From Chitinibacter bivalviorum (lineage in GTDB: Bacteria > Pseudomonadota > Gammaproteobacteria > Burkholderiales > Chitinibacteraceae): a DNA stretch of 64,000 nucleotides. Of this stretch, positions 1,457 through 14,212 are shown piece by piece (the first letter of the stretch is position 1; each line of letters begins with the position of its first letter). Made by a program: the position numbers and the translations under genes. The stretch covers positions 1,674,001 through 1,738,000 of the forward strand of contig NZ_CP058627.1 in NCBI RefSeq assembly GCF_013403565.1, written 5' to 3'. The notes below the pieces were generated by a model. It ran no database searches, was not told the origin of the DNA, and worked only from the letters and a program-made list of their open reading frames with translations.

Positions 1457-2491
1457 TTATATAGATCGTAAAGTTTCAGGCCAAATAAAATACGGCCCAA
1501 ATTTAGGACTAAACTTAGCCTCACCGCCCGCAGCCTTGCCCTGTGCGGTTAGTTTTGGCTTGCCCTCAACAATCTCTACAAAACCCTTCTCAACCAATTT
1601 ATCAATCAACTCTTGAGTATTTTTGAGCCCTAGCTTGGCGGCTAGCTTGGAGCTGGTTAGTTTTGCTACCTCTTCCACTGCTTCCGAGATGGGCGCAACC
1701 TCAACAGCTGGCGGTGCGGCCATCGCTGCTTTTTGCTCTTCAACTTGAGCTGTATTTGCAAGCTCATTGATCCCAAACTTTGCTTTGTAGTCGGGTTTTA
1801 TAGAGCGATGGTGTCGGGTGAATATCTCAGCAATTTCCATCACCGTTTCGCCGCTGACGATCTTGGCCAAGCTACCAAACATACGACCAAAGCTTGCATC
1901 ATCTGCATTGGTCTTAGTTACCCATTCCAAAACCTGCTCAGCCTTGATGACGTTTTTGGTATCAAAATTTTTTGGGCGCGTAATGCGTTGCTTGTTGCTA
2001 ACCATCACCACACTGGTAAATGATGGCATCAGCGTTACGCCAAGGCGTGTAGGCAGCGGCAGAGTCTTGCTTAGGGCCTTTAGCACTTCAATGTGCTTTT
2101 CGTTCTGGGCTAATGGGCTGGGAATACCGATGGGCTTCTTGTTGTACCAAGCGGTGAACTCGCCCTGCTCGTTGATTTGCAAGTCAGCGCTGAAGTTCTT
2201 GGTTTCGATCACAAATACATCCAGCAAACGGTTGATCAGTAAATGATCAATCTGCGCCACTCGTCCATTGTGCTCGATCCGTAAGTCATGAATCACCGCC
2301 CAGTTTTTTGAATCCTTCAGATAGAAGTTGATTTCATATTCACTGTTTTGCTCGCCCTGAACCCCTTGCTTGAGAGCATGGATTTCTTTGGTGATTAGCT
2401 CCCGCTGTTTGGCGCTCAAATTCGGTAATGTCAGCAGCTCGTGCAGCTCATCAAGCTGCACTTGTTTGGAGTCTGGATTCTTTATGATCAT
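1457..2491 (-). CDS. NERD-domain protein with C-terminal winged-helix-like region
   Basis: Start chosen at ATG 2491 (MIIKNPDSKQ, 344 aa). The frame stays open to 2569, but those extra residues look like translated intergenic DNA, and a weak GAAG purine stretch lies upstream of 2491. Residues about 60-170 match the NERD (nuclease-related) fold: IDHLLINRLLDVFVIETKNF carries the D and ExK residues of a PD-(D/E)xK-like site, followed by the family's QN-containing helix. Residues about 275-320 (TSSKLAAKLGLKNTQELIDK and onward) look like a winged helix. The C-terminal KFGPYFIWPE motif resembles tails seen behind such DNA-binding domains. A DNA-acting role is likely; the substrate is unknown. It faces the 120-bp repeat array lying just upstream. 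Confidence 0.8.
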   Translation of the reverse strand: MIIKNPDSKQVQLDELHELLTLPNLSAKQRELITKEIHALKQGVQGEQNSEYEINFYLKDSKNWAVIHDLRIEHNGRVAQIDHLLINRLLDVFVIETKNFSADLQINEQGEFTAWYNKKPIGIPSPLAQNEKHIEVLKALSKTLPLPTRLGVTLMPSFTSVVMVSNKQRITRPKNFDTKNVIKAEQVLEWVTKTNADDASFGRMFGSLAKIVSGETVMEIAEIFTRHHRSIKPDYKAKFGINELANTAQVEEQKAAMAAPPAVEVAPISEAVEEVAKLTSSKLAAKLGLKNTQELIDKLVEKGFVEIVEGKPKLTAQGKAAGGEAKFSPKFGPYFIWPETLRSI

Positions 2492-2642
2492 TTTTTTCTT
2501 CAAAACCAAAATTAAATATCTACAAACAAACTTCTGAACCCTAACTACCTGACAAGCTCTACTAGGCAATCAAACAGACAAATCTTTCACGGTGCATTTC
2601 CAGATTTTCTGCAAAAGAACTAAACAATCCCACTTCTGGCAC

Positions 2643-3303
2643 AAATGATGTCAAAAACTATATGCACTAGCCCTTCAGTCCGCTTCAAAAGTTGCACATG
2701 TGCAACTTACGCAAACGATTAGATTTTCCAATCAGCTAATATTTAGCTCAAGTCATGCAAATGATGTCAAAAACCGTATCCTGCGCTAGCTATATACACT
2801 TCAAAAAAGTTGCACATGTGTAACTCGTCTCGACCTCCACCCTCCATAATGAGTGATGATCCATAACACTTATGATGCAAATGATGTCAAAAACTATATC
2901 CTGCGCTAGCTCTGAACTACCGTAAAAAGTTGCACATGTGCAACTCCTGCAAGTCAGCAAAGCAGCTTGATTTACTAATATTTAGTAAATCTCGCTCAAA
3001 TGATCTCAAAAACCGTATCCTGCGCTCAGCTCTCAACCACTTCAAAAAGTTGCACATGTGCAACTTTCTTTTCAAGACAGAACATACCACTCCGTAATAT
3101 TTACCATGGCCAGCACAAATGATCTCAAAAACCATATCCTGCGCTAGCTCAGAACTGCCCTAGAAAGTTGCACATGTGCAACTCCAACATGGTCAGCAAA
3201 GCAGCTTGATCTACCAATCTTTGGCAAATCTCGCTCAAATGATTTCAAAAACCGTATCCTGCGCTAGCCTAGAACTACCCTAAAAAGTTGCACATGTGCA
3301 ACT
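2643..3303. repeat. Six-unit ~120-bp tandem array with an 18-bp palindrome and variable hairpins
   Basis: Units start at 2643, 2759, 2879, 2998, 3117 and 3237 (spacing 116, 120, 119, 119, 120). Each begins with box A, AAATGATNTCAAAAACC, and units 2-6 continue with GTATCCTGCGCTAGC or a near match. After a variable stretch of about 14 nt comes box B, the perfect palindrome AGTTGCACATGTGCAACT, at 2690-2707, 2808-2825 (one mismatch), 2928-2945, 3048-3065, 3166-3183 and 3286-3303. About 45-50 variable nt follow. In units 1-5 these contain a hairpin with a three-base loop: 2734-2748, 2862-2874, 2969-2991, 3094-3104 and 3208-3230. Spacings are not multiples of three, so this is not a coding repeat. 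It fills the 0.8 kb between hsdR and the NERD gene. Function unknown. Confidence 0.9.
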
Positions 3304-3398
3304 TTAACCCTTGCCAGTAACGTCCCTGCTGGGCCGTACAGGCTGTCGGCCTACCTGCTGGTCGGCTCGCCAAAATTCGTTTTGAAATTCTTCAAAAA

Positions 3399-5798
3399 TC
3401 AAACCGTTTCCAGATACAGGTACTTTTGAAACCCGGTAAAAACCTTGTTGATTTCGGCGGGCTTGCCAAGATCAGCTGCAGCATCAGCTAGTGAGTCGTG
3501 ATATTTCAGCTTGAGCAAAGGCGTGAGTTTGGTTTGATCCAGCTCTTCCACGCCCAGATTCACGTAATGCGACAGCACAAAATCCAAAAACACCTGCTGC
3601 TTGCTATTGAAGTTGGTACTGATCAACGCCATCGCCTTGGCTGCACGTTCTTCTCGCGTCAACGGGCTCATTGCATAGGCCACATGGGCTAGCACGTCGA
3701 ATAGATCACTATTCTCGGCATCTATGATTTTCTGCATTTCCTGCAGTTGGTCTTTGCCAAAGCCTTTTTCTGCCAAGCCCTCCAGTAGCTTTTTGCGCGT
3801 ATCGGGCGACATCCACAAAGTACGCAGCTCTTCTTCGTTTTTGAAAAAGTCTGGCAATTGGCCAAATAACATTTCCATGAATTCCTGAGCGGCCATTGGT
3901 GTGCCGTCTGGATGCCAAAAGCTAGTGCAGGTCATGTGTTGAATGGCTCGCACTTTGCCATCGGCCAGCTTCACTTTGGCTTTGGGCTTTTTCTTGCAAA
4001 TGCATGGCTCTTGCCCGCACTGCTTGCAAATTTCTGGCGGGCATACACATGGCTGCTGGCCACAGATCTTGCACGGCTTTGGTGGCGTTTTCTCGCATTT
4101 GCAGGGGTATAGGCCACACGTTGGGCAGGTTGCCGGGTCAACTGGCTCGCCATCCCAATCCGGGTCGCTAAACAGGTGGTGCGCCTTCACAAAATCATAA
4201 ATCGTGAAGTAGTCTTTACCATCGTAAAGCCGCGTACCGCGCCCGATGATCTGCTTAAACTCGATCATCGAAGTCACTGGCCGCATTAGCACCACATTAC
4301 GCACGTTTCGCGCATCAACGCCTGTAGAGAGCTTTTGTGAGGTCGTCAAAATCGTCGGAATCGACTTTTCGTTATCCTGAAAATCGCGCAAATGCTGCTC
4401 GCCCAAAGCACCATCATTGGCGGTAACACGGTGGCAGTAATTCGGGTTGCTGCTGGTTTTGATCTGGTTAATCAAATCGCGCACGGCGAGCGCATGAATC
4501 TGGTTGGCGCAAAACACCAGCGTTTTTTCGTTCTGGTTAATTTGCGACATAAACAGCTTCACCCGATGCTGCTCACGCTCTTTGATTTCGATAATCTTGT
4601 TGAAGTCTTTTTCTTCGTAGCGTTTGCCCTTCTCGACTTCGCCCTCGATCACCGCATCATCCGGGGTGTAAACGTATTCATCCAGCGTGGTCGAAATTTG
4701 CTTCACGCGGAATGGCGTCAAAAAGCCATCGTTGATGCCGTCTTTCAGCGAATAGCTATACACAGGCTCGCCAAAATAGGCGTAGGTATCGACGTTATCT
4801 TTGCGCTTTGGTGTGGCCGTCAAACCCAACTGCACGGCGGGCGAGAAGTATTCCAAGATACCGCGCCAGTTGCCTTCGTCTTTCGCGCCACCACGGTGGC
4901 ACTCGTCAATGATGATGAAATCGAAAAAGTCGGCGGGGTATTCGCCAAAATACGGCAAAGGCTGGCCATCCTTGCCCTTGCCGCTCATAAAGGTCTGAAA
5001 GATGGTGAAAAAGATGCTGCCGTTTTTCGGTACTTTGCCTTTTTTCTTGATGTCGTCTGGCTCGATCCGCACCAGTGCATCTTCGGGGAAGGCCGAAAAC
5101 GAGTTATAGGCTTGGTCGGCCAATACATTGCGGTCAGCCAAAAACAGAATACGCGGGCGGCGTTGTGGCTCGTTGCTAGTTTTCCAATCGGTTAGATTCC
5201 AGCGCGATTGAAACAGCTTCCACGCCAATTGAAAGCCGACAAAGGTTTTGCCTGTACCCGTTGCCAGCGTCAGCAGAATGCGGCTGCGCTGCTCGGCCAC
5301 CGCAGCTAATACGCGCTCAACGGCAATATCTTGATAGTAGCGGCCTTGGAAATAACCGCCTCGGTCTTCAAACGGAATCGCAGCAAAACGATCACGCCAA
5401 GCATTTTGCGTCGCAAAGGTCAGATTCCACAACTCATCCGGGCTTGGAAAGCCAACCCGCTCGCCTTCCGTACCCTGCTCCATATCAATCGCATACACGC
5501 CCTGCCCATTGCTGGCATAGGTGAAGCGAATCGACAGCTTGCCCGCATAATCCTTGGCCTGCCCTACGCCTTCGCTCAGCGGCTTATCCCAAGCCTTGGC
5601 CTCTACAACGGCCAGCTTAGTATTGCGGTAGATCAGCAGATAATCGGCGCTCAATGCCTTGCCGCGTTTGCCATGCCCTTCCAACCGCCCCAGCGTAATC
5701 GGGTATTCCCGGCGAATACGGCTTTCATCGACCACGCCCCAGCCAGCGGCTACCAGCATAGGGTCAATATGGTCTGAGCGGGTTTCGGCTTCGTTCAT
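3399..5798 (-). CDS. hsdR: Type I restriction enzyme R subunit (nuclease and translocase)
   Basis: The 799-aa motor/nuclease subunit of a type I restriction system, which binds the HsdM-HsdS core, pulls DNA using ATP and cuts it. The N-terminal nuclease domain shows D52 and VEAK (E66, K68) of the PD-(D/E)xK site. The SF2 helicase has Walker A ATGTGKT (179-185), DECH (298-301), a LTATP motif and a QIIGRGTRL motif VI. An unusual insert at about residues 557-605 contains three or four CxxCGxxPCxC units, probably zinc-binding. The C-terminal helical region presumably contacts HsdM. It is the last gene of hsdM-yhcG-hsdS-(rhuM remnant)-hsdR, with a 190-bp gap before it, so it may have its own promoter. 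Appears intact. Confidence 0.95.
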   Translation of the reverse strand: MNEAETRSDHIDPMLVAAGWGVVDESRIRREYPITLGRLEGHGKRGKALSADYLLIYRNTKLAVVEAKAWDKPLSEGVGQAKDYAGKLSIRFTYASNGQGVYAIDMEQGTEGERVGFPSPDELWNLTFATQNAWRDRFAAIPFEDRGGYFQGRYYQDIAVERVLAAVAEQRSRILLTLATGTGKTFVGFQLAWKLFQSRWNLTDWKTSNEPQRRPRILFLADRNVLADQAYNSFSAFPEDALVRIEPDDIKKKGKVPKNGSIFFTIFQTFMSGKGKDGQPLPYFGEYPADFFDFIIIDECHRGGAKDEGNWRGILEYFSPAVQLGLTATPKRKDNVDTYAYFGEPVYSYSLKDGINDGFLTPFRVKQISTTLDEYVYTPDDAVIEGEVEKGKRYEEKDFNKIIEIKEREQHRVKLFMSQINQNEKTLVFCANQIHALAVRDLINQIKTSSNPNYCHRVTANDGALGEQHLRDFQDNEKSIPTILTTSQKLSTGVDARNVRNVVLMRPVTSMIEFKQIIGRGTRLYDGKDYFTIYDFVKAHHLFSDPDWDGEPVDPATCPTCGLYPCKCEKTPPKPCKICGQQPCVCPPEICKQCGQEPCICKKKPKAKVKLADGKVRAIQHMTCTSFWHPDGTPMAAQEFMEMLFGQLPDFFKNEEELRTLWMSPDTRKKLLEGLAEKGFGKDQLQEMQKIIDAENSDLFDVLAHVAYAMSPLTREERAAKAMALISTNFNSKQQVFLDFVLSHYVNLGVEELDQTKLTPLLKLKYHDSLADAAADLGKPAEINKVFTGFQKYLYLETV

Positions 5799-5989: not shown

Positions 5990-6238
5990 CTACACACCTG
6001 CAACAATCAAAACACGATCAAGAAACTCAAGCCTTAGCCAACTGTTTCCATTTTGGAAACGGTTGCTTCGTTGCTCCAGCTCGCCGCTGGCAAAGATGTT
6101 CTTCAGGTGTTTGGAAATCGCCGCTTTCTGTACGCCAAACACATTCGCCATCTGCTCTTGCGACAGCCATACCGTCTCTTGCGCTACGCGCACTTCGACT
6201 GTGCCGTTATCGGCCCGATAGATCGTAATCTCGCCCAT
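5990..6238 (-). pseudogene. RhuM-family remnant, frameshifted
   Basis: The 82-aa reading frame matches the N-terminal DNA-binding part of RhuM ('virulence protein') family members: IYRADNGTVEVRV, then ETVWLSQEQMANVFGVQKAA and LKNIFASGEL. Full members are about 300 residues or more. After GELE the frame turns into unrelated sequence, while the neighbouring frame reads EATVSKMETVG and then hits a stop. That segment looks like the family's natural continuation, so the gene seems broken by a frameshift and then truncated. RhuM genes often sit between hsdS and hsdR in type I operons, which is exactly the position here. Probably non-functional, although a short HTH peptide could still be made. Confidence 0.75.
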
Positions 6239-6302: not shown

Positions 6303-7436
6303 TCACAATTCACCACTAAATGCTTGCTGCAGCAAGGCTTTTTTCAGCTCGTCGAGCGCGGCGAGTTTTTGCTGGTAGATGCTGATTAACTGATCATTTT
6401 GTTGCGATACACTCTGAATCAATTCAACAATCTCGGCTTGCTTCGCAACAGGGGGGATTGCACCCAACTGCAATGCACGAATATCTTTCATATTCACATG
6501 CTGCACCGTCGCACCACGCGAATGCGCTAACAATTTGGTTTGCATTAAGGGCTGAAGCAGAAAATAAGCCAAAAAATGAGAATTAAGAAATTCAGACTTA
6601 GGGCGAATTAAAACAGTTCGCTGCCCCAGACAAAGCGGTTGGTTTTCTGGGATTACGGCTACATTACCAGCGGGAGCCTCACGCGCTAATATCAAATCCC
6701 CTGCTGCCGGAATTGCTCTGCGAGTCCATTCAACGTATGTTTCCTGCGATACGCGATAAACACCATCGAGCAGCAATTTTCCCTTACCGATGTTAGGGGT
6801 GCGAATTGATGGAATGCCTTCGTCCTGAGTGGGAGCTGTTTTATGCTCACAATCAACAATTAGCTCGCACAACTCAGACAGGGGCGTCCCTAAATCTCGC
6901 CAGTTCTGATCTTTATTTGAAAAAATATACTGCAAATGGCTTTCAAATAATGCGCGGGCGTTTTGTAGGTTTTTTTCGGCATTGGCTTTCGCCGTGGCAA
7001 TCCCTTCAAACGCCTCATCCAGAATGGCAACAATGCGCTGCTGCTCTTTTGTATCTGTTGTGAATAGCACACGTTCATCATGAACAAAGTTACGATTTAA
7101 GGTTGGTACACCTGTACCAGTCGCAAACCGTTTTAAATCAAAATTATTTAGGAAATGAAATATAAACTTCGGATCATTTCCATGAAAATCCTTAACATAA
7201 AGAACGGTATTTAATGGCCAATAATCTTTATCAATAAAAAAAACTTTACCAATACTGCCGCTTCGACCTGTAATTACTCCGGGGCTTTTAACTGCTGACT
7301 TATGATGAGAGTCAATTACCCCACTTGAGCTAACCAAGGGAAAAGTGCCGGCAATTCGATTTTGAGTAGGCAAATCGAATCCCCGTTGCAATGTTGCAAC
7401 TTCCCCAAACCTTTTGTACGACCACCCCGCCTTCAT
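6303..7436 (-). CDS. hsdS: Type I restriction-modification specificity subunit
   Basis: The 377-aa protein has the two-half layout of HsdS: target-recognition domain 1 (about residues 1-135), a conserved helical spacer (KEQQRIVAILDEAFEGIATA and onward), target-recognition domain 2 (about 180-330) and a C-terminal helix ending LKKALLQQAFSGEL. The two halves each read one half of a split DNA target and the helices form the ruler between them. The target cannot be read from sequence. Its ATG overlaps the stop of the upstream yhcG-like gene by 4 nt, so translation is probably coupled. Confidence 0.93.
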   Translation of the reverse strand: MKAGWSYKRFGEVATLQRGFDLPTQNRIAGTFPLVSSSGVIDSHHKSAVKSPGVITGRSGSIGKVFFIDKDYWPLNTVLYVKDFHGNDPKFIFHFLNNFDLKRFATGTGVPTLNRNFVHDERVLFTTDTKEQQRIVAILDEAFEGIATAKANAEKNLQNARALFESHLQYIFSNKDQNWRDLGTPLSELCELIVDCEHKTAPTQDEGIPSIRTPNIGKGKLLLDGVYRVSQETYVEWTRRAIPAAGDLILAREAPAGNVAVIPENQPLCLGQRTVLIRPKSEFLNSHFLAYFLLQPLMQTKLLAHSRGATVQHVNMKDIRALQLGAIPPVAKQAEIVELIQSVSQQNDQLISIYQQKLAALDELKKALLQQAFSGEL

Positions 7437-8464
7437 ACCCCATCCCCCAAACGCTGGCGCGCCAGCTCGATGGATTGATGCAACTTCGCTTCAAGGATTT
7501 CTTTGGCGGGCAATAGCGTCAAATAGTCGGCGACGCGAATATTACTTTGATCGAGCTGCAATAGTTCAATATGCTCATTGTTTTTGCCCGCACACAAAAT
7601 CAGCCCAATCGGGCTATTTTCATTGGGTAGTTGCTCGTATTTTTCCAGATAGCGCAAATACAGCTCCATTTGACCTTTGTACGCGGCTTCAAATTCGCCA
7701 ATTTTTAGTTCAATCGCCACCAAACATTGCAAACGGCGATGGTAAAACAGTAGGTCGATATAATAATCGCGCTGGTCGATGGTGATGCGTTTTTGCCGAG
7801 CCATAAAAGCAAAGTCGCTGCCCATTTCGACGATAAAACGCTGCAATTCGGCCACAATGGCCGATTCAAGGTCTTTTTCACTGTAGGTGTCGGCTAGACC
7901 CAGAAAATCCAGCACATAGGGATCACGAAACGCCAAATCAGCCGACATCTGCCCTTCTTCACGCAAAGCCTGCAAATCCTGCTGGATGGTGGTGGCGGGC
8001 TGTTTGGAAATGGCGGTGCGCTCAAACAGCATGGATTTAATGCGCTCTTGTAGCTGGCGCACGCTCCAGCGTTCGAGTCGGCAAATTTCAATATAAAACT
8101 CGCGTTTCAGTGCGTCGTCGATGGCCAGCAACAGGCGCAAGTGTGACCAGCTCAATTCTGCACACACTGTGTTCACAATTGCCGAGTCGGGAAAAACGCT
8201 GGCCAATTGCACGCAAAGCCAAAGCTGGCGCTCGCTCCAGCCTTTGCCATATTCACTACTCAGTTGCCGCGACATACTGGCAATCAGCTGTTTGCCATAC
8301 TGCCCACGCTCGCCTTTTAAGACTTCTTGCTGTAAACGCTGGCCGATATGCCAATACAGCAAACTCAGTTCGGCATTCACCACGGCGGCGGCGCGTTGGC
8401 GAGATCGCTCGATCAGAACACGCAGATCGAGCAAGATCGGTGAGTGCTGGGTAGGCAATGTCAT
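7433..8464 (-). CDS. YhcG/DUF1016-family PD-(D/E)xK nuclease
   Basis: The 343-aa protein has an N-terminal DUF1016 domain (about 10-150, including a WSERQLWLC motif) and a C-terminal PD-(D/E)xK domain. Active-site candidates are the D in YYIDLLFYHR and the ELK in LVAIELKIGEF. It is inserted between hsdM and hsdS, with 4-nt overlaps on both sides, so it is part of the restriction operon. Family members are putative nucleases often found inside type I systems and mobile elements. Whether this one modifies or guards the restriction enzyme is not known. The nuclease fold is well supported; the biological role is inference. Confidence 0.88.
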   Translation of the reverse strand: MTLPTQHSPILLDLRVLIERSRQRAAAVVNAELSLLYWHIGQRLQQEVLKGERGQYGKQLIASMSRQLSSEYGKGWSERQLWLCVQLASVFPDSAIVNTVCAELSWSHLRLLLAIDDALKREFYIEICRLERWSVRQLQERIKSMLFERTAISKQPATTIQQDLQALREEGQMSADLAFRDPYVLDFLGLADTYSEKDLESAIVAELQRFIVEMGSDFAFMARQKRITIDQRDYYIDLLFYHRRLQCLVAIELKIGEFEAAYKGQMELYLRYLEKYEQLPNENSPIGLILCAGKNNEHIELLQLDQSNIRVADYLTLLPAKEILEAKLHQSIELARQRLGDGV

Positions 8465-9915
8465 AGTAAGCCTCGAATGGTCGCCAACACTTCAGCGCTT
8501 TCCACGTCCAGCGCGGCGATTTCATCCATGATGTCTTGCGGGCTACGGTGAATCACCTCTTCACCGCCATTCGGATTTTTAACCGACAAATCGTAAGTCG
8601 CAATATCGAGGTCGGCGACATCCACGCTCCAGCTTTTGGCAGAATCGGCGCTAGTGGCTTGCAGCGTAATAAATTCGGCCAGATCGTCGTCATTGAGCGG
8701 GTTGGTTTTACCCATATTGCGGCCGGGATCAAGCTGGTAATACCAGACTTTGCGCGTGGGCGAGCCTTTTTCAAAAAACAGCACCACGGTTTTAACGCCA
8801 GCGCCTTGGAATGTGCCGCCGGGGCAATCGAGTACGGCGTACAGATTGCAGCTTTCCAGCAGCAGCTTGCGCAAGCTGACCGAGGCATTATCGGTGTTCG
8901 ATAGGAAGGTGTTTTTGATTACCACCGCAGCCCGGCCACCTGCTTTGAGCATTTTGATGAAATGCTGCATAAACAGGAATGCGGTTTCTCCGGTGCGGAT
9001 CGGGAAGTTTTGCTGCACTTCCTTACGCTCTTTACCGCCAAACGGCGGGTTGGCCAGAATGACATCCATACGGTCTTTGTCTTGGATGTCTGCAAGGTTT
9101 TCGGCCAGCGTGTTGGTGTGCTGAATATTGGGCGCTTCGATGCCGTGCAGGATCATATTCATGATCGCAATCACGTAGGCCAGCGATTTTTTCTCTTTGC
9201 CGTAGAAAGTGCGCTCTTGCAGCGTTTTTAAGTCGTCCGTAGTGCGATTGGGCGTTTGATTAAGGTAATCAAAGGCTTCGCACAAAAAGCCCGCAGAACC
9301 GCATGCGCCGTCATAAATACGCTCGCCGATTTTGGGCTTGGTCACGGCAATCATGGCGCGAATCAGCGGGCGTGGCGTGTAGTATTCGCCGCCGTTGCGC
9401 CCAGCGTTGCCCATGTTCTTGATTTTGGCTTCGTACAGGTGCGATAGCTCGTGCTTTTCCACCTGCGAGCCGAATTTCAGTTCGTCGATATGGTCGATCA
9501 CATCGCGCAGCGTGTAGCCGCTTTGAATCTTGTTTTTAATCTCGCCGAAAATTTCGCCGATTTTGTATTCAATGGTATTCGGGCCTGCTGCCTTTTGCTT
9601 GAAGCCCTGTAGATAGGGAAACAGGCGAATATCAACAAACTGGCGCAAATCGTCGCCTGTCATCGCGGCGTTGTGGTCGATCTGGCCTTGCTCATCTTTC
9701 GGCGCGGCCCAATAGCCCCAGCGGAATGGCTCGGCGAGAATGTAAGTGTACTCACGGCCTTCCAGCTCGGCTTCCATAGCCTTGCCCTCTTCCAGCGCGT
9801 CCAGATACTTCAGAAACAGCAGCCAAGAGGTTTGCTCGGTGTAGTCCAGCTCGGTGGTGCAGCCAGATTCCTTGTGCAAGATGTCGTCGATATTTTTAAA
9901 AGCTTGTTCAAACAT
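8461..9915 (-). CDS. hsdM: Type I restriction-modification DNA methyltransferase subunit
   Basis: N6-adenine methyltransferase subunit that, with HsdS, marks host DNA. The chosen start, ATG 9915 (MFEQAFKNID), is the first ATG in the frame and matches the usual HsdM N-terminus, giving 484 aa. The open frame continues upstream only to a TTG at 9969. An N-terminal helical domain (HsdM_N) is followed by the SAM-binding region with DGACGSAGFL and the catalytic NPPF motif (ILANPPFGGKE). It is the first gene of the operon. About 540 bp upstream contain no other clear gene, so the promoter should lie there. Confidence 0.95.
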   Translation of the reverse strand: MFEQAFKNIDDILHKESGCTTELDYTEQTSWLLFLKYLDALEEGKAMEAELEGREYTYILAEPFRWGYWAAPKDEQGQIDHNAAMTGDDLRQFVDIRLFPYLQGFKQKAAGPNTIEYKIGEIFGEIKNKIQSGYTLRDVIDHIDELKFGSQVEKHELSHLYEAKIKNMGNAGRNGGEYYTPRPLIRAMIAVTKPKIGERIYDGACGSAGFLCEAFDYLNQTPNRTTDDLKTLQERTFYGKEKKSLAYVIAIMNMILHGIEAPNIQHTNTLAENLADIQDKDRMDVILANPPFGGKERKEVQQNFPIRTGETAFLFMQHFIKMLKAGGRAAVVIKNTFLSNTDNASVSLRKLLLESCNLYAVLDCPGGTFQGAGVKTVVLFFEKGSPTRKVWYYQLDPGRNMGKTNPLNDDDLAEFITLQATSADSAKSWSVDVADLDIATYDLSVKNPNGGEEVIHRSPQDIMDEIAALDVESAEVLATIRGLL

Positions 9916-10458
9916 GGGATGGATCACTTTAACTTGATGGCGAATGCTCTGCACCGGATTGAAGGGCAAAGCAGCCTAAAGGCGTAATTTACCGACTTGA
10001 GCGGCATAGAACAAACAAAACGGCGTGATTTTGACGAATAAAGTCAGATAAAGCCTGACTGATGCGGCTGGATAGTCGATTGCAGGCAACAACGGGCGCA
10101 AAAGGCAGATCAGCCACTACTCACCTTGCCGAACCGGGTTTGAGTTTTGTGATGGCAGACAGACAATTTTTAGGTGCTATTTTTTAGGAAAAAATTTTGC
10201 GTTGCCAAGTGATGTGCCTAGCAAAATCAAGCATTAGCGCCCAATTTGTACCTACAAATACCGGCAACTGCCTATCCTGCGTGTGCTCAATTTTAAGCTT
10301 GTTTTTACCTCAAAACTAAGCTTTTCTAGTCAGAATTCGCTAAGAAATCGCAAAAATCACAAAGGAAGCAGGAATGAAGCACTAAAGAAACACAAAGAAA
10401 GCATCTAGGAAGCAAAAAAGATGCAGAAAGGCAGCAAAATACGGGATTTTGCAGGCTT
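9916..10458. other. Intergenic region upstream of hsdM
   Basis: I see no convincing gene here. It should hold the hsdM promoter on the minus strand. At 10290-10325 there is an imperfect inverted repeat built on AAGCTTGTTTT and AAAACTAAGCTT, which may act as a transcript end. The stretch 10340-10440 is strongly purine-rich with repeated AAAGAAAGCA-like words. Confidence 0.4.
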
Positions 10459-10839: not shown

Positions 10840-11052
10840 AAGATTATAAAAGATTAAGGCGTTTTTCTGAAAACACGGAAAGCTAGTATTGGCGAGGCTT
10901 GCAGGCAGGTTTTGATGCATAAAAATCTGTGTGCTACATCGGGTTTTTATGTGTGCTACATCGGTATTGCCTGTGTGCTACAACGGTAGCTCATGTGTGC
11001 TGCATCGGTATTTTCTGTGTGCTACATCGGCAAGATCTGTGTGCTACATCGG
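10840..11052. other. Candidate iteron-type replication origin (AT-rich stretch plus iterons)
   Basis: Six phased iterons (10928-11052) sit between an AT-rich block and the trfA-like gene. The AT-rich block (about 10840-10870) contains three near-repeats of GATTAAGAAA, GATTATAAAA and GATTAAGG, the kind of easily melted DNA expected beside iterons. No perfect DnaA box was found by eye. The layout (initiator gene, iterons, AT-rich DNA) is that of theta-replicating plasmids such as RK2, but the repeat sequence is different. Whether this origin works in the integrated state is unknown. Confidence 0.65.
10928..11052 (+). repeat. Six 22-bp iterons
   Basis: The 15-bp core TGTGTGCTACATCGG occurs at 10928, 10950, 10972 (CAACGG variant), 10994 (CTGCAT variant), 11016 and 11038. 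The spacing is exactly 22 bp each time, about two helical turns, so all sites face the same side of the helix. The 7-bp spacers are not conserved. The array starts 94 bp beyond the 3' end of the trfA-like gene, so these are very likely the initiator's binding sites. Confidence 0.92.
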
Positions 11053-11145
11053 TATGAATTTAGCCATTTTTTTCCTAATTGCAGGCAAACCTTTGCCGTG
11101 CCGCAAAGTAAGCACTTAGATGGTAGAGCAGGCTGGTGACAAAAA

Positions 11146-12060
11146 CTAAAGCGTGGCGATGTTCGCGTTGAACTTATGCTTTAGAAACTTGGCTTGGGAT
11201 GTCGAGGGAGTACGCGTAACGTGAACGATATTTTGTTTGAATTCAGCATTAAAAATTTGCTGATGCTGCTCAGAGGCCTTAGCTATCAACGCAAACGCTT
11301 TTCGAAGATCGCGCTTAAAGCCGTAGAGATCAGCATTTTCACTGCCGCAAAGTGCATGCAATGTTTCAATCGAATAGGCAAATGGCTTAGCGTGGCTTGA
11401 ATAAAATCCATGCAGCCAAAGGGCAAGCGGAAATCCCGCTAGCTGCTGCCTAACCTGCCAATCTAGCGCGGTCCATTGGTCTTTCTCAAATAAACCGCGC
11501 AGCTTCGGGTTTAGCCGAATCAGATATTGCCGTGTAGCCTGATCCCGATAAACAGAGTCGATCAAGCTGCCTTCATAGCTTAAATTGCCAATTTGAATAT
11601 TTAGCGCGGTTGCATTTAGACGGCTTAGCCGGGCATTTAGAATTTTTCGGTTTTGCCCTGAGTCAAAGAGGCTAACCAGTCTCAATAATTGGTAGGCCGT
11701 TACCCTACATTCATCACCCAGCATTTGCATCCTAGAAGCATGCAAAACGGCCTCCCAAATGCTCAAATCAAATTGATCTAGGGTAGGCCCAGAATAAAGG
11801 ATATTTAAACCTGCGGCGGCGTATATCGGCTTTCGCTCCAAATATTGAGCAGCGCCTTTTCGTCGAACACCAAATAGCGCAGAACGAAGCAAGCCATTGG
11901 GTACACCACGCGCCGTTTCAGGCCACAATGGAAGCTGCACAGACTCGTTGCAAGTCTGATCAACTACTGCAACTGCAGCCTTTTTAGGCTTTAGTAGCGC
12001 CCTTTGATGTGCCTCTTTAACTTTGGTTAGCACTGAATTTTCGTACAGAGAATCATCCAT
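11146..12060 (-). CDS. trfA: TrfA-family plasmid replication initiator
   Basis: About 304 aa from ATG 12060; a GTG at 12081 could add 7 residues, and neither has a clear ribosome site. The sequence follows the TrfA pattern: GVPNGLLRSALFGVR, then a YSGPTLDQFDLSIWEAVLH segment, a winged-helix region, and a second winged helix containing SIETLHALCGSENADLYGFK. TrfA binds iterons, opens the origin and recruits DnaB helicase. It lies 21-42 bp after a small HTH gene and ends beside the six iterons, forming a complete replicon core inside a tRNA-integrated element. It looks intact. Confidence 0.88.
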   Translation of the reverse strand: MDDSLYENSVLTKVKEAHQRALLKPKKAAVAVVDQTCNESVQLPLWPETARGVPNGLLRSALFGVRRKGAAQYLERKPIYAAAGLNILYSGPTLDQFDLSIWEAVLHASRMQMLGDECRVTAYQLLRLVSLFDSGQNRKILNARLSRLNATALNIQIGNLSYEGSLIDSVYRDQATRQYLIRLNPKLRGLFEKDQWTALDWQVRQQLAGFPLALWLHGFYSSHAKPFAYSIETLHALCGSENADLYGFKRDLRKAFALIAKASEQHQQIFNAEFKQNIVHVTRTPSTSQAKFLKHKFNANIATL

Positions 12061-12102
12061 ATACAGGGATGCTCGTTGCACAAATAAGAAACCGCTGATA
12101 AA

Positions 12103-12336: not shown

Positions 12337-12424
12337 TAAGGAATACGCACTAAAGCGCCAATAGTACAGCTACACGCATCAATGCGTAGAATAAACGCAC
12401 TAAATTTAAGTGTCAAGGCCAGCT
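12337..12424. promoter_or_regulatory. Divergent promoter with direct and inverted repeats
   Basis: The gap between the two divergent regulator genes holds the direct repeat ACGCACTAAA at 12345-12354 and again at 12395-12404. Between them, at 12374-12387, is the perfect inverted repeat ACGCAT-CA-ATGCGT, which shares the ACGCA word. The symmetry suggests operators for one of the flanking HTH proteins. No strong sigma-70 hexamers are obvious, so promoter positions are not assigned. Confidence 0.6.
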
Positions 12425-13084
12425 ATGAATAAAATTACAGATCGACTGCAAGCAGTCATTACTGAAAAAACAGAAGAGCGTCGTCGATGGAAATCGCTCG
12501 AAGAACTTAGCGGGATCACAGCAATGAGCTGGCAAAACTTTTGGCGTGGCAAACAACGGCCAACAGCTGAAATGCTCGAAGCAGTCTGTCAAGAATGGCC
12601 AGAATATGCGTTTTGGATCACAACGGGCATTACCGATCCTTTGCGTGGCCACATCGCACCACAGTCATTTGAACCGTGCTTTCCAGTTGTTAGAGGGAAG
12701 CCGCTTACATTCGCAAATCAGGAATGGAAGTACAAGCTTGCATTAATGCAAACAGAAACTGCAGCAGAAGGCAGCATGGCTGATAAGCGCCTTAAAAGAG
12801 AGCAGCTTGGAAGAGAATTGGCCAACGAAGCGAATGTTCCTGCCCTATTTTTATCTTATGAAGATTTAATCGACCTTTACGGCGAGAAAGGCAGCTATCA
12901 GTACGTCGAACTCGTATTTGATGAAGAGCTTAATAATATCGAAGAGATGCGGCGGCATGAAGAACTGGCGCTTTCAGAAAAACGGGCACGAACCGTACAG
13001 AATATTAAAATTTCTGCAGTCATAGACACACTCTACAAGCGTGGTGTCCATAAAATTCGAGGCTGGTTTTCGCGTGAAATTTAA
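12425..13084 (+). CDS. Repressor-like HTH protein of the integrative element
   Basis: Start ATG 12425 has AAGG 5-8 nt upstream; a GTG at 12410 in the same frame is less likely. The product is 219 aa. Residues about 20-70 (SLEELSGITAMSWQNFWRGK, then PTAEMLEAVCQEWPEYAFWI) form an XRE-type HTH of the kind found in phage and island repressors. The remainder is charged and helical. It ends 2 nt before the integrase, so the two are co-transcribed. Probably controls integrase and replication genes through the divergent operator region. Confidence 0.7.
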   Translation: MNKITDRLQAVITEKTEERRRWKSLEELSGITAMSWQNFWRGKQRPTAEMLEAVCQEWPEYAFWITTGITDPLRGHIAPQSFEPCFPVVRGKPLTFANQEWKYKLALMQTETAAEGSMADKRLKREQLGRELANEANVPALFLSYEDLIDLYGEKGSYQYVELVFDEELNNIEEMRRHEELALSEKRARTVQNIKISAVIDTLYKRGVHKIRGWFSREI

Positions 13085-13086
13085 CT

Positions 13087-14088
13087 ATGGCCATTAAAAA
13101 AGCTGATTCAGGCTGGCTCGTTGACATCCAACCCGGTGGGCGTGGATTCAAACGCTATCGCAAGAGCTTTGCCACCAAAGCTGAGGCATTGGCATGGGAA
13201 ACATGGGTAAAAGGTCAGATTCAACAAGAACCAGACTGGCAACCCAAAAAGCGAGACACCCGCAAACTAACCGAATTGCTAGAACTGTGGTGGGTCAATC
13301 ATGGCCAGCAGCTTCGTGCGGGTAAAAACACTCACTCTCGCCTATTGCTGCTGATTAACTCAATCGGCAACCCGGTAGCTGATCAATTTTCTGCTGATGA
13401 TTTTGCAGCCTACCGCGCCAAGCGTCTGGCGGCAGGAATTTCGGCCAATGCCATCAACCGTGAACACGCCTACTTGCGGGCGATGTTTAATGAACTGAAG
13501 CGCCTCAATCACTGGAGCGGTGAAAATCCGCTATCGGAAATCCGTAGCTTCAAGATTGTCGAAAAAGAGCTGAGTTTTCTCACCAATGAGCAAATCAAGA
13601 TTCTCTTTGCGGCACTAGAGGAAAGCAGCAACCCTGATGCACTGATCGTTAGCCAAATTTGCCTATCGACAGGCGCACGATGGAGCGAGGCAGAAGAGCT
13701 GCGCTCTACGCAGCTCAGGCAAGGTGCAATCGAATATGCCATGACAAAAAGCGGGCGCAATCGCACGATCCCGATTTCTACTGAATTAGAAGCGCAATTA
13801 AAAGCGATAGCCAAAGATGGACGGCATCGACTTTTTGCTAGTTGCTATTCAGCGTTTAGGGAAGCGGTAGATCGTTCAGGCTTGAAGCTACCAGACGGGC
13901 AACTTACGCACGTACTGCGCCACACCTTTGCCAGCCATTTCATGATGAATGGGGGCAATATTCTGACGCTGCAGCGTGTACTCGGCCATAGCGACTTGAA
14001 GATGACAATGCGCTACGCGCACTTGTCGCCAGAGCATTTGCAAGAGGTTAGAAATTTGAATCCGCTGGCGCGGTTGACACTTGGTTGA
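13087..14088 (+). CDS. int: Tyrosine recombinase (integrase)
   Basis: A 333-aa site-specific recombinase. After an Arm/SAM-like N-terminal part, the catalytic half carries the Arg of STGARWSEAEEL, the HxxR box HVLRHTFASHF, a later His in VLGHSDLKMTMR, and the nucleophile Tyr in RYAHLSPEHL. The gene ends 47 bp from the 3' end of the tRNA gene and points at it, the standard layout for an element integrated into a tRNA 3' end. It is translated right after the repressor-like gene. The matching second attachment site was not found inside the window and should lie to the left of base 1. Confidence 0.93.
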   Translation: MAIKKADSGWLVDIQPGGRGFKRYRKSFATKAEALAWETWVKGQIQQEPDWQPKKRDTRKLTELLELWWVNHGQQLRAGKNTHSRLLLLINSIGNPVADQFSADDFAAYRAKRLAAGISANAINREHAYLRAMFNELKRLNHWSGENPLSEIRSFKIVEKELSFLTNEQIKILFAALEESSNPDALIVSQICLSTGARWSEAEELRSTQLRQGAIEYAMTKSGRNRTIPISTELEAQLKAIAKDGRHRLFASCYSAFREAVDRSGLKLPDGQLTHVLRHTFASHFMMNGGNILTLQRVLGHSDLKMTMRYAHLSPEHLQEVRNLNPLARLTLG

Positions 14089-14129: not shown

Positions 14130-14135
14130 GATTTT

Positions 14136-14212
14136 TGGTGGGCCCACACGGACTTGAACCGTGGACCAAAGGATTATGAGTCCTCTGCTCTAACCAACTG
14201 AGCTATGGGCCC
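14136..14212 (-). tRNA. tRNA with CAT anticodon (Ile2 or elongator Met)
   Basis: A 77-nt cloverleaf on the minus strand: acceptor GGGCCC pairs with GGGCCC, D-arm AGCTCAGTTGGTTAGAGC, anticodon loop CTCATAA, T-loop GGTTCAAGTCC, and an encoded CCA end at 14138-14136. The CAT anticodon fits either elongator tRNA-Met or the lysidine-modified tRNA-Ile2; the GGACTCATAATCC arm is seen in both. It follows rpoD on the same strand. Its 3' end marks the boundary of the accessory element. Confidence 0.92.

Follow-up and report, generated by a model that had tools for sequence, protein, structure and literature searches.

The window analysed in this work, a 64,000-nucleotide stretch of the Chitinibacter bivalviorum genome, was found to carry a row of six related units that very probably represents six tandem, same-strand copies of an origin of transfer (oriT) of the IncU/RA3-like MobP1 class, by which the surrounding island would hitch on helper plasmids. 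The unit is homologous to a relaxase-linked oriT and shares its anatomy, the copies are individually conserved, no relaxase was found in the element, and a sister element also carries a tandem array. The array and its units, with the predicted nick given by its two flanking positions, are as follows.

2643-3303, plus strand (the nick strand): tandem array of six units, read as oriT; unit starts 116-120 bp apart
2643-2707, plus strand: unit 1, box A and a perfect box B; it has lost its nick core and is probably dead
2759-2825, plus strand: unit 2, box A, core TATCCTGCGCTAGC and box B with one mismatch; predicted nick 2783/2784
2879-2945, plus strand: unit 3; predicted nick 2903/2904
2998-3065, plus strand: unit 4, one-base insertion 3' of the core; predicted nick 3022/3023
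3117-3183, plus strand: unit 5; predicted nick 3141/3142
3237-3303, plus strand: unit 6; predicted nick 3261/3262

Work on RP4 provides both the P-type nick consensus and the transfer polarity, and the nick position is taken by us to be that of RP4, TATCCTG/C (the slash marks the nick). Each unit would thus comprise a relaxase recognition and nick site, made up of box A and TATCCTG/C, and then a palindrome about 25 nt 3' of it. The first-pass annotation had described six units in which conserved boxes alternate with variable stretches, and this arrangement was confirmed. Box A (AAATGATNTCAAAAAC) starts at 2643, 2759, 2879, 2998, 3117 and 3237, and box B, an 18-bp palindrome, at 2690, 2808, 2928, 3048, 3166 and 3286, about 25 nt 3' of the nick core. 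Box B had been called a perfect palindrome, which holds for five of the six copies, the one at 2808 having one mismatch. The core reported for units 2-6 is present in all of them, though in two variants, GTATCC in units 2, 4 and 6 and ATATCC in units 3 and 5, and with a one-base insertion in unit 4, where the region reads CGCTCAGC; in unit 1 a three-base gap stands where the core should be. The conserved nick core (T/A)ATCCTGC is found in units 2-6 and is missing from unit 1, and the exact ATCCTGCNNTAG occurs only in units 2, 3, 5 and 6 (four matches in the window against 0.07 expected). The five inter-unit spacers have a near-constant length of 51-53 nt. Six box B matches at up to three mismatches were obtained in none of 100 shuffles of the window, and the five exact box B copies of the 3.68-Mb genome all lie within the array. 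Box A at up to two mismatches has 14 matches in the genome, the best six of which (0-1 mismatch) are those of the array, and a reversed control gave one. The array does not fill the whole gap between hsdR and the NERD-domain gene, as had been stated: since the probable NERD start is at 2491, the gap extends over 2492-3398, and 661 of its 907 bases are occupied. That the array is non-coding and located in a tRNA-integrated defence element was upheld.

Mean pairwise identity over the six units was 0.98 for box B, the most conserved part, 0.87 for box A plus core (unit 1 included), 0.61 for the short spacer between nick and box B (shuffled 0.48), and 0.53 for the five inter-unit spacers. Without the u4/u6 pair, itself 0.83 identical, the inter-unit spacers gave 0.495 versus 0.506 for shuffled sequence. 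Because these spacers, one pair aside, are at the level of shuffled sequence, the array is not a recent amplification. The sites are intact in old copies whose spacers are randomised, so that the copies look as if kept by selection, or by repair between copies. The earlier idea that the array grows by copying holds for one nic-to-nic block and fails for the other spacers, which remain at the shuffled level: the module nic3-nic4 is 86% like the module nic5-nic6, which is suggestive of a single recent copying event, and the remaining module pairs are 57-69% alike.

The spacers also bear on the proposal that the units form a family of small RNAs or RNA hairpins, which we regard as extremely improbable. 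Read on the minus strand, box B runs into three or more additional T in five of the six units (two in unit 5), inverted repeats are present in the spacers of units 2, 3 and 4 (base-shuffle p ≤0.027; at a different distance in unit 3), and units 2 and 4 fold better than their dinucleotide shuffles; the inverted repeats are however not significant in units 1, 5 and 6, and spacer identity is at the shuffled level. Rfam gave no family at gathering score other than tRNA, and a consensus scan detected no promoter-like or terminator-like site. A conserved spacer hairpin was considered and is not claimed, the stem being of 10 bp in unit 4, of 6 bp in unit 2 and weaker or displaced elsewhere.

Among 43 genomes of the family, both the 16-bp palindrome and a DNA search with the whole array gave matches in the genome under study and in an Iodobacter genome (G031) alone. 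The box B palindrome was absent from the other five genomes of the genus, from 41 of the 43 family genomes and from the other 398 of 399 sampled genomes of the order. A known dispersed repeat was rejected as an explanation, as the exact palindromes of this genome are all in the array and the other five genus genomes have none. Plasmid and phage collections searched with the array gave nothing at E 1e-5, and no exact palindrome was found in viral contigs. A strict scan for box A plus core in the genome_contigs collection (one genome for each of 84,980 species; it may omit the window's own record) returned a single record, from Iodobacter sp. BJB302, a contig of 11,931 bases that agrees with the G031 contig in length and in the position of the core. 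Tandem nick cores were detected among the 399 order genomes only in the genome under study; such sampling can miss them, since the congener with the sister array described below (G002) is outside the sample. In viral contigs 30 matches to tandem nick cores were obtained, 29 of them in open frames with periods divisible by three. The thirtieth (L090) is outside an open frame and has a palindrome after each of two cores; it is a doubtful case and was not counted, as further copies of this palindrome occur on the contig, which is rich in low-complexity repeats.

The Iodobacter contig (L028, 11.9 kb) has identical 127-bp ends and was therefore taken as a circular plasmid. It encodes an RPA-type replication protein, a KfrA_N protein, a ParA-like protein, a MobC/NikA-like protein and a relaxase, and it carries one unit between a 141-aa gene and mobC, directly upstream of mobC-relaxase and with the core antisense to mobC. 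This unit is 82% identical to the array over 68 bp and its palindrome is the same; a second box B is located away from the nick. The relaxase matches MobP1 with E 3.5e-30, which is below the curated cut-off, as is the match of RA3's own relaxase, to which it is 42.6% identical; no match to it was found in the PDB. MobC of this plasmid (708-1484) has 258 aa, as against 176 aa in RA3, and its NikA/MobC-like part is preceded by an HTH-like stretch at the N-terminus. The oriT of RA3 contains AATCCTGCCCTAG, with a palindrome at the box-B distance. The array had first been assigned to no known class; its core matches a MOBP nick site and its unit an oriT, and the suggestion of repeated protein-binding sites, one of several made, was upheld.

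From 345 relaxase records at E ≤1e-25, 11 plasmids (RA3 and ten others) were picked by hand and analysed with the Iodobacter plasmid, 12 in all, and the mobC start could be placed in 11 of them. In 10 of these 11 plasmids, including that of Iodobacter, the 150 nt upstream of mobC contain ATCCTGC in antisense orientation, and none of the 11 has it there on the sense strand (base shuffles 0.9%). L046 lacks ATCCTGC upstream of mobC and has TATCCGGC there instead, and in the unannotated L042 the core is on neither strand. Nine of these ten plasmids have a palindrome 3' of the nick, with a stem of 6-12 bp that begins 21-37 nt beyond it, at base-shuffle p values of 0.001-0.038; pMRAD02 has the core with no palindrome after the nick. 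In the same test, units 3-6 of the array gave p 0.001-0.003, and unit 2, with its mismatched palindrome, was not significant (p 0.47). The palindrome sequence differs from plasmid to plasmid, that of the Iodobacter plasmid being the one of the array. The full ATCCTGCNNTAG core occurs once per mob-bearing plasmid locus in 9 of the 12 plasmids and is absent from the other three.

The array is part of an island of about 15.1 kb at a tRNA-Met gene, with the following features in the window.

1457-2569, minus strand: NERD-domain gene, probable start 2491, ORF residue 27 being where its homologue begins
3399-5798, minus strand: hsdR
6303-9969, minus strand: hsdS, YhcG/DUF1016 nuclease gene and hsdM
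10926-11055: about six 22-bp iteron-like repeats beside trfA, probable oriV
11146-12081, minus strand: TrfA-type replication initiator
12410-13084, plus strand: HTH-like protein P0004, no Pfam family over cut-off, candidate box B binder
13087-14088, plus strand: tyrosine integrase
14135-14182: 48-bp att repeat in the 3' end of tRNA-Met; second copy at G000:C1:1672990-1673037

The second att copy lies 15,145 bp to the left, upstream of the window. Between the two copies the gene order is integrase, HTH-like protein, TrfA, hsdM, YhcG nuclease, hsdS, hsdR, array, NERD and three genes with no Pfam family. As an integrase, TrfA, iteron-like repeats and type I restriction-modification and other defence genes are enclosed by att repeats, the island looks like an integrated replicon with defence cargo, and it is probably replication-competent. 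An integrase and att repeats are also what is expected of a relaxase-less mobilisable island. The three consecutive genes left of NERD (239, 204 and 251 aa, from 524-1243 of the window to about -821) have no Pfam or NCBIfam match and possibly form an undescribed system in this defence island; their interpretation as diverged mob genes was rejected, as no Pfam match was obtained. A small ORF at 5990-6238, between hsdS and hsdR, has weak Cro-like HTH similarity below the cut-off.

Neither the Pfam scan of selected ORFs of the element nor a Pfam search of the whole genome placed a relaxase within its span, and a similar search of the genome for VirB4 was negative; both genome-wide searches gave a positive signal in a control genome. 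A helper would therefore be needed. The Pfam relaxases of the genome are on C2 (three copies), on C3 and at C1:1521222; those of C3 and C1 were typed as TraI/MobP-like, the C1 one below the cut-off of the model, and the C2 relaxase was left untyped. On C2, a contig of 42,950 bases, the three relaxase matches have equal scores and are about 13.5 kb apart, which may reflect a plasmid multimer or an assembly artefact. The Iodobacter relaxase had no match in the present genome at E 0.1, in a search run without a positive control, and no helper with a matching oriT was found in this genome, the only match being on a plasmid of another genus. Since the transfer enzyme was not found in it, the island probably hitches on other plasmids. 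The same facts could also describe a decoy, in which the sites titrate or trap the relaxase or MobC of incoming plasmids as an anti-conjugation defence: the array stands among defence genes, it offers many binding sites for which no partner enzyme was found, and the same palindrome and core occur on a plausible competitor plasmid. Such a sponge would however not need full nick cores, and simple hitching accounts for the same data, which makes the decoy quite improbable.

The congener G002 (L065) was found to carry a 15.2-kb element in the same tRNA-Met, with integrase, HsdR, NERD and TrfA proteins 98%, 99%, 92% and 68% identical to those of the island. The homology ends at window position 2491 and resumes at 3313, and the hsdR-NERD gap of the sister element contains no array. 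Upstream of its hsdM there are three same-strand tandem nick cores, spaced by 117 and 136 bp. One of them is degenerate and the other two are intact, and the units have a different box A and a different palindrome, which is perfect in one of the three. The ten units from the two islands and the Iodobacter plasmid align through box A, core and palindrome. Positions 3405-3580 of L065 hold an iteron-like repeat set similar to that at 10926-11055 of the window, and an ABC-3C CTD12 gene and a DUF2326 gene lie to the right of NERD (L065 12540-15560), as variable cargo in a fixed position. The sister palindrome had five matches in viral contigs, none with a nick core within 80 bases; the sister box A plus core had none there, and the sister array none in plasmids.

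A third close TrfA element (G026, 55%) has no TATCCTGC core in the 19.9 kb fetched; tandem oriT-type arrays are thus present in two of the three close TrfA elements examined, with different specificity and position. The surroundings of four more distant TrfA genes (25-31%; G010, G011 twice, G020) hold single cores at most and no tandem. In G004 a further att copy is located 7.75 kb away at the same tRNA-Met (L066 482-8331), which suggests a third, smaller element, and within the genus this tRNA-Met is perhaps a hot spot of integration; among the matches listed, G001, G003 and G005 have no second att copy of comparable identity beside it.

For RA3, the IR-SnaBI palindrome is described as the KorB site of a centromere-like region, MobC as binding another operator, and plasmids with two-base changes in the nick site as not transferable (PMC4175270); KorB is also reported to control mobCp (PMC7414963). 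Because in RA3 KorB acts at the palindrome and nick-site changes block transfer, box A and the core are read as the relaxase site, and the palindrome of box B is proposed to bind a protein with a role in the relaxosome, in partition or in regulation. P0004 would be a candidate binder of box B. The N-terminal HTH-like stretch of Iodobacter MobC resembles the N-terminal part of P0004 (E 2e-5, one comparison) and a 121-aa protein of the sister element (E 2e-7), and P0004 matches the 121-aa protein at 1e-11; from these pairwise matches, all three replicons with such sites encode an HTH-like domain of this kind. The resemblance may be merely that of the common HTH fold, and no box B copy was found near P0004.

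The position of the KorB site raises the alternative that the array serves chiefly as a centromere (parS) or as a set of regulator sites, box B working in the partition of the excised TrfA replicon or in gene control and the nick cores being inherited from a composite parS-oriT. In its favour, the palindrome stands, at the box-B distance, in the place of RA3's KorB site, box B is the best conserved part and is retained by unit 1 after loss of the nick core, and the Iodobacter plasmid combines a second box B off the nick with a ParA-like gene. We consider it unlikely, as a pure parS array would have no need of the box A and core kept in units 2-6, the sister array has an intact nick core in two of three units but a perfect palindrome in only one, and no ParB was recognised among the element genes scanned.

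Under the oriT reading, an Iodobacter-type plasmid with mobC-relaxase, and a transfer apparatus, would share a cell with the island, and the foreign helper relaxase would nick units 2-6 on the plus strand. Transfer would lead into hsdR, with the polarity presumably as in RP4, and the island would re-circularise, replicate by TrfA and integrate at tRNA-Met. The array is not upstream of a mobC-relaxase of its own, a placement that the Iodobacter plasmid alone shows. If active, as many as six copies would be surprising, because relaxases are expected to delete same-strand oriTs; the simplest idea for their number is that an island present in single copy would have to compete with the oriT of the helper itself and would gain from a multiplied oriT. 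We infer nicking, mobilisation, replication and this benefit of multiplicity from sequence comparison. A broader proposal, to which we give slightly less than an even chance, is that a family of relaxase-less TrfA defence islands has evolved tandem same-strand oriT arrays as a module, in which copies are selected, specificity is swapped to suit helpers, multiplicity itself increases transfer or burdens the helper even though deletion is expected, and nic-to-nic blocks are gained and lost.

Like the array, the RA3-type IncU oriT (MobC-Nic, MobP1-like) has an ATCCTGC(nn)TAG core and a palindrome about 25 nt 3' of the nick, and the plasmid sharing the array's unit encodes a related relaxase. The loci compared from RA3 and the other plasmids have one full ATCCTGCNNTAG core or none, beside mobC-relaxase, whereas the array has six units, no relaxase found with it, and a different palindrome and box A. 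In having a foreign-type oriT and no relaxase found, the island resembles the oriT mimics, namely the relaxase-less S. aureus mimics of pWBG749, an example of single oriT mimicry (PMC4652767), and the relaxase-less hitcher elements with foreign-type oriT (PMC11389934). It is unlike the S. aureus mimics in that its six copies are in tandem on one strand with near-constant spacing. The S. aureus set, as described, comprises two-oriT plasmids with the sites on opposite strands and no three-oriT plasmid with all on one strand, and the same report states that same-strand oriTs recombine and that relaxases are expected to delete them (PMC4652767). Several oriTs per element are known, and one survey predicts several on almost two thirds of oriT-bearing plasmids (PMC11389934, PMC7755788). 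No natural tandem same-strand oriT array was found in the open-licence literature searched. Recombination between tandemly repeated oriTs of R64 has reportedly been studied in the laboratory. A tandem row of borrowed oriT signals, each apparently kept by selection, thus seems unusual; it could offer a concrete route for defence genes to spread without encoding transfer enzymes, and it poses a puzzle, since relaxases recombine same-strand oriTs and yet the array has retained six divergent copies, in five of which the nick site is conserved. Another close system is the island of G002, which shares the tRNA-Met site, the integrase (98%), HsdR (99%), TrfA (68%), iteron-like repeats and a tandem oriT array, and differs in having three units, another palindrome and box A, and its array upstream of hsdM. 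That two such similar backbones carry arrays of different specificity points to transfer specificity as a module open to exchange, so that both the number of copies and the choice of helper are accessible to direct study.
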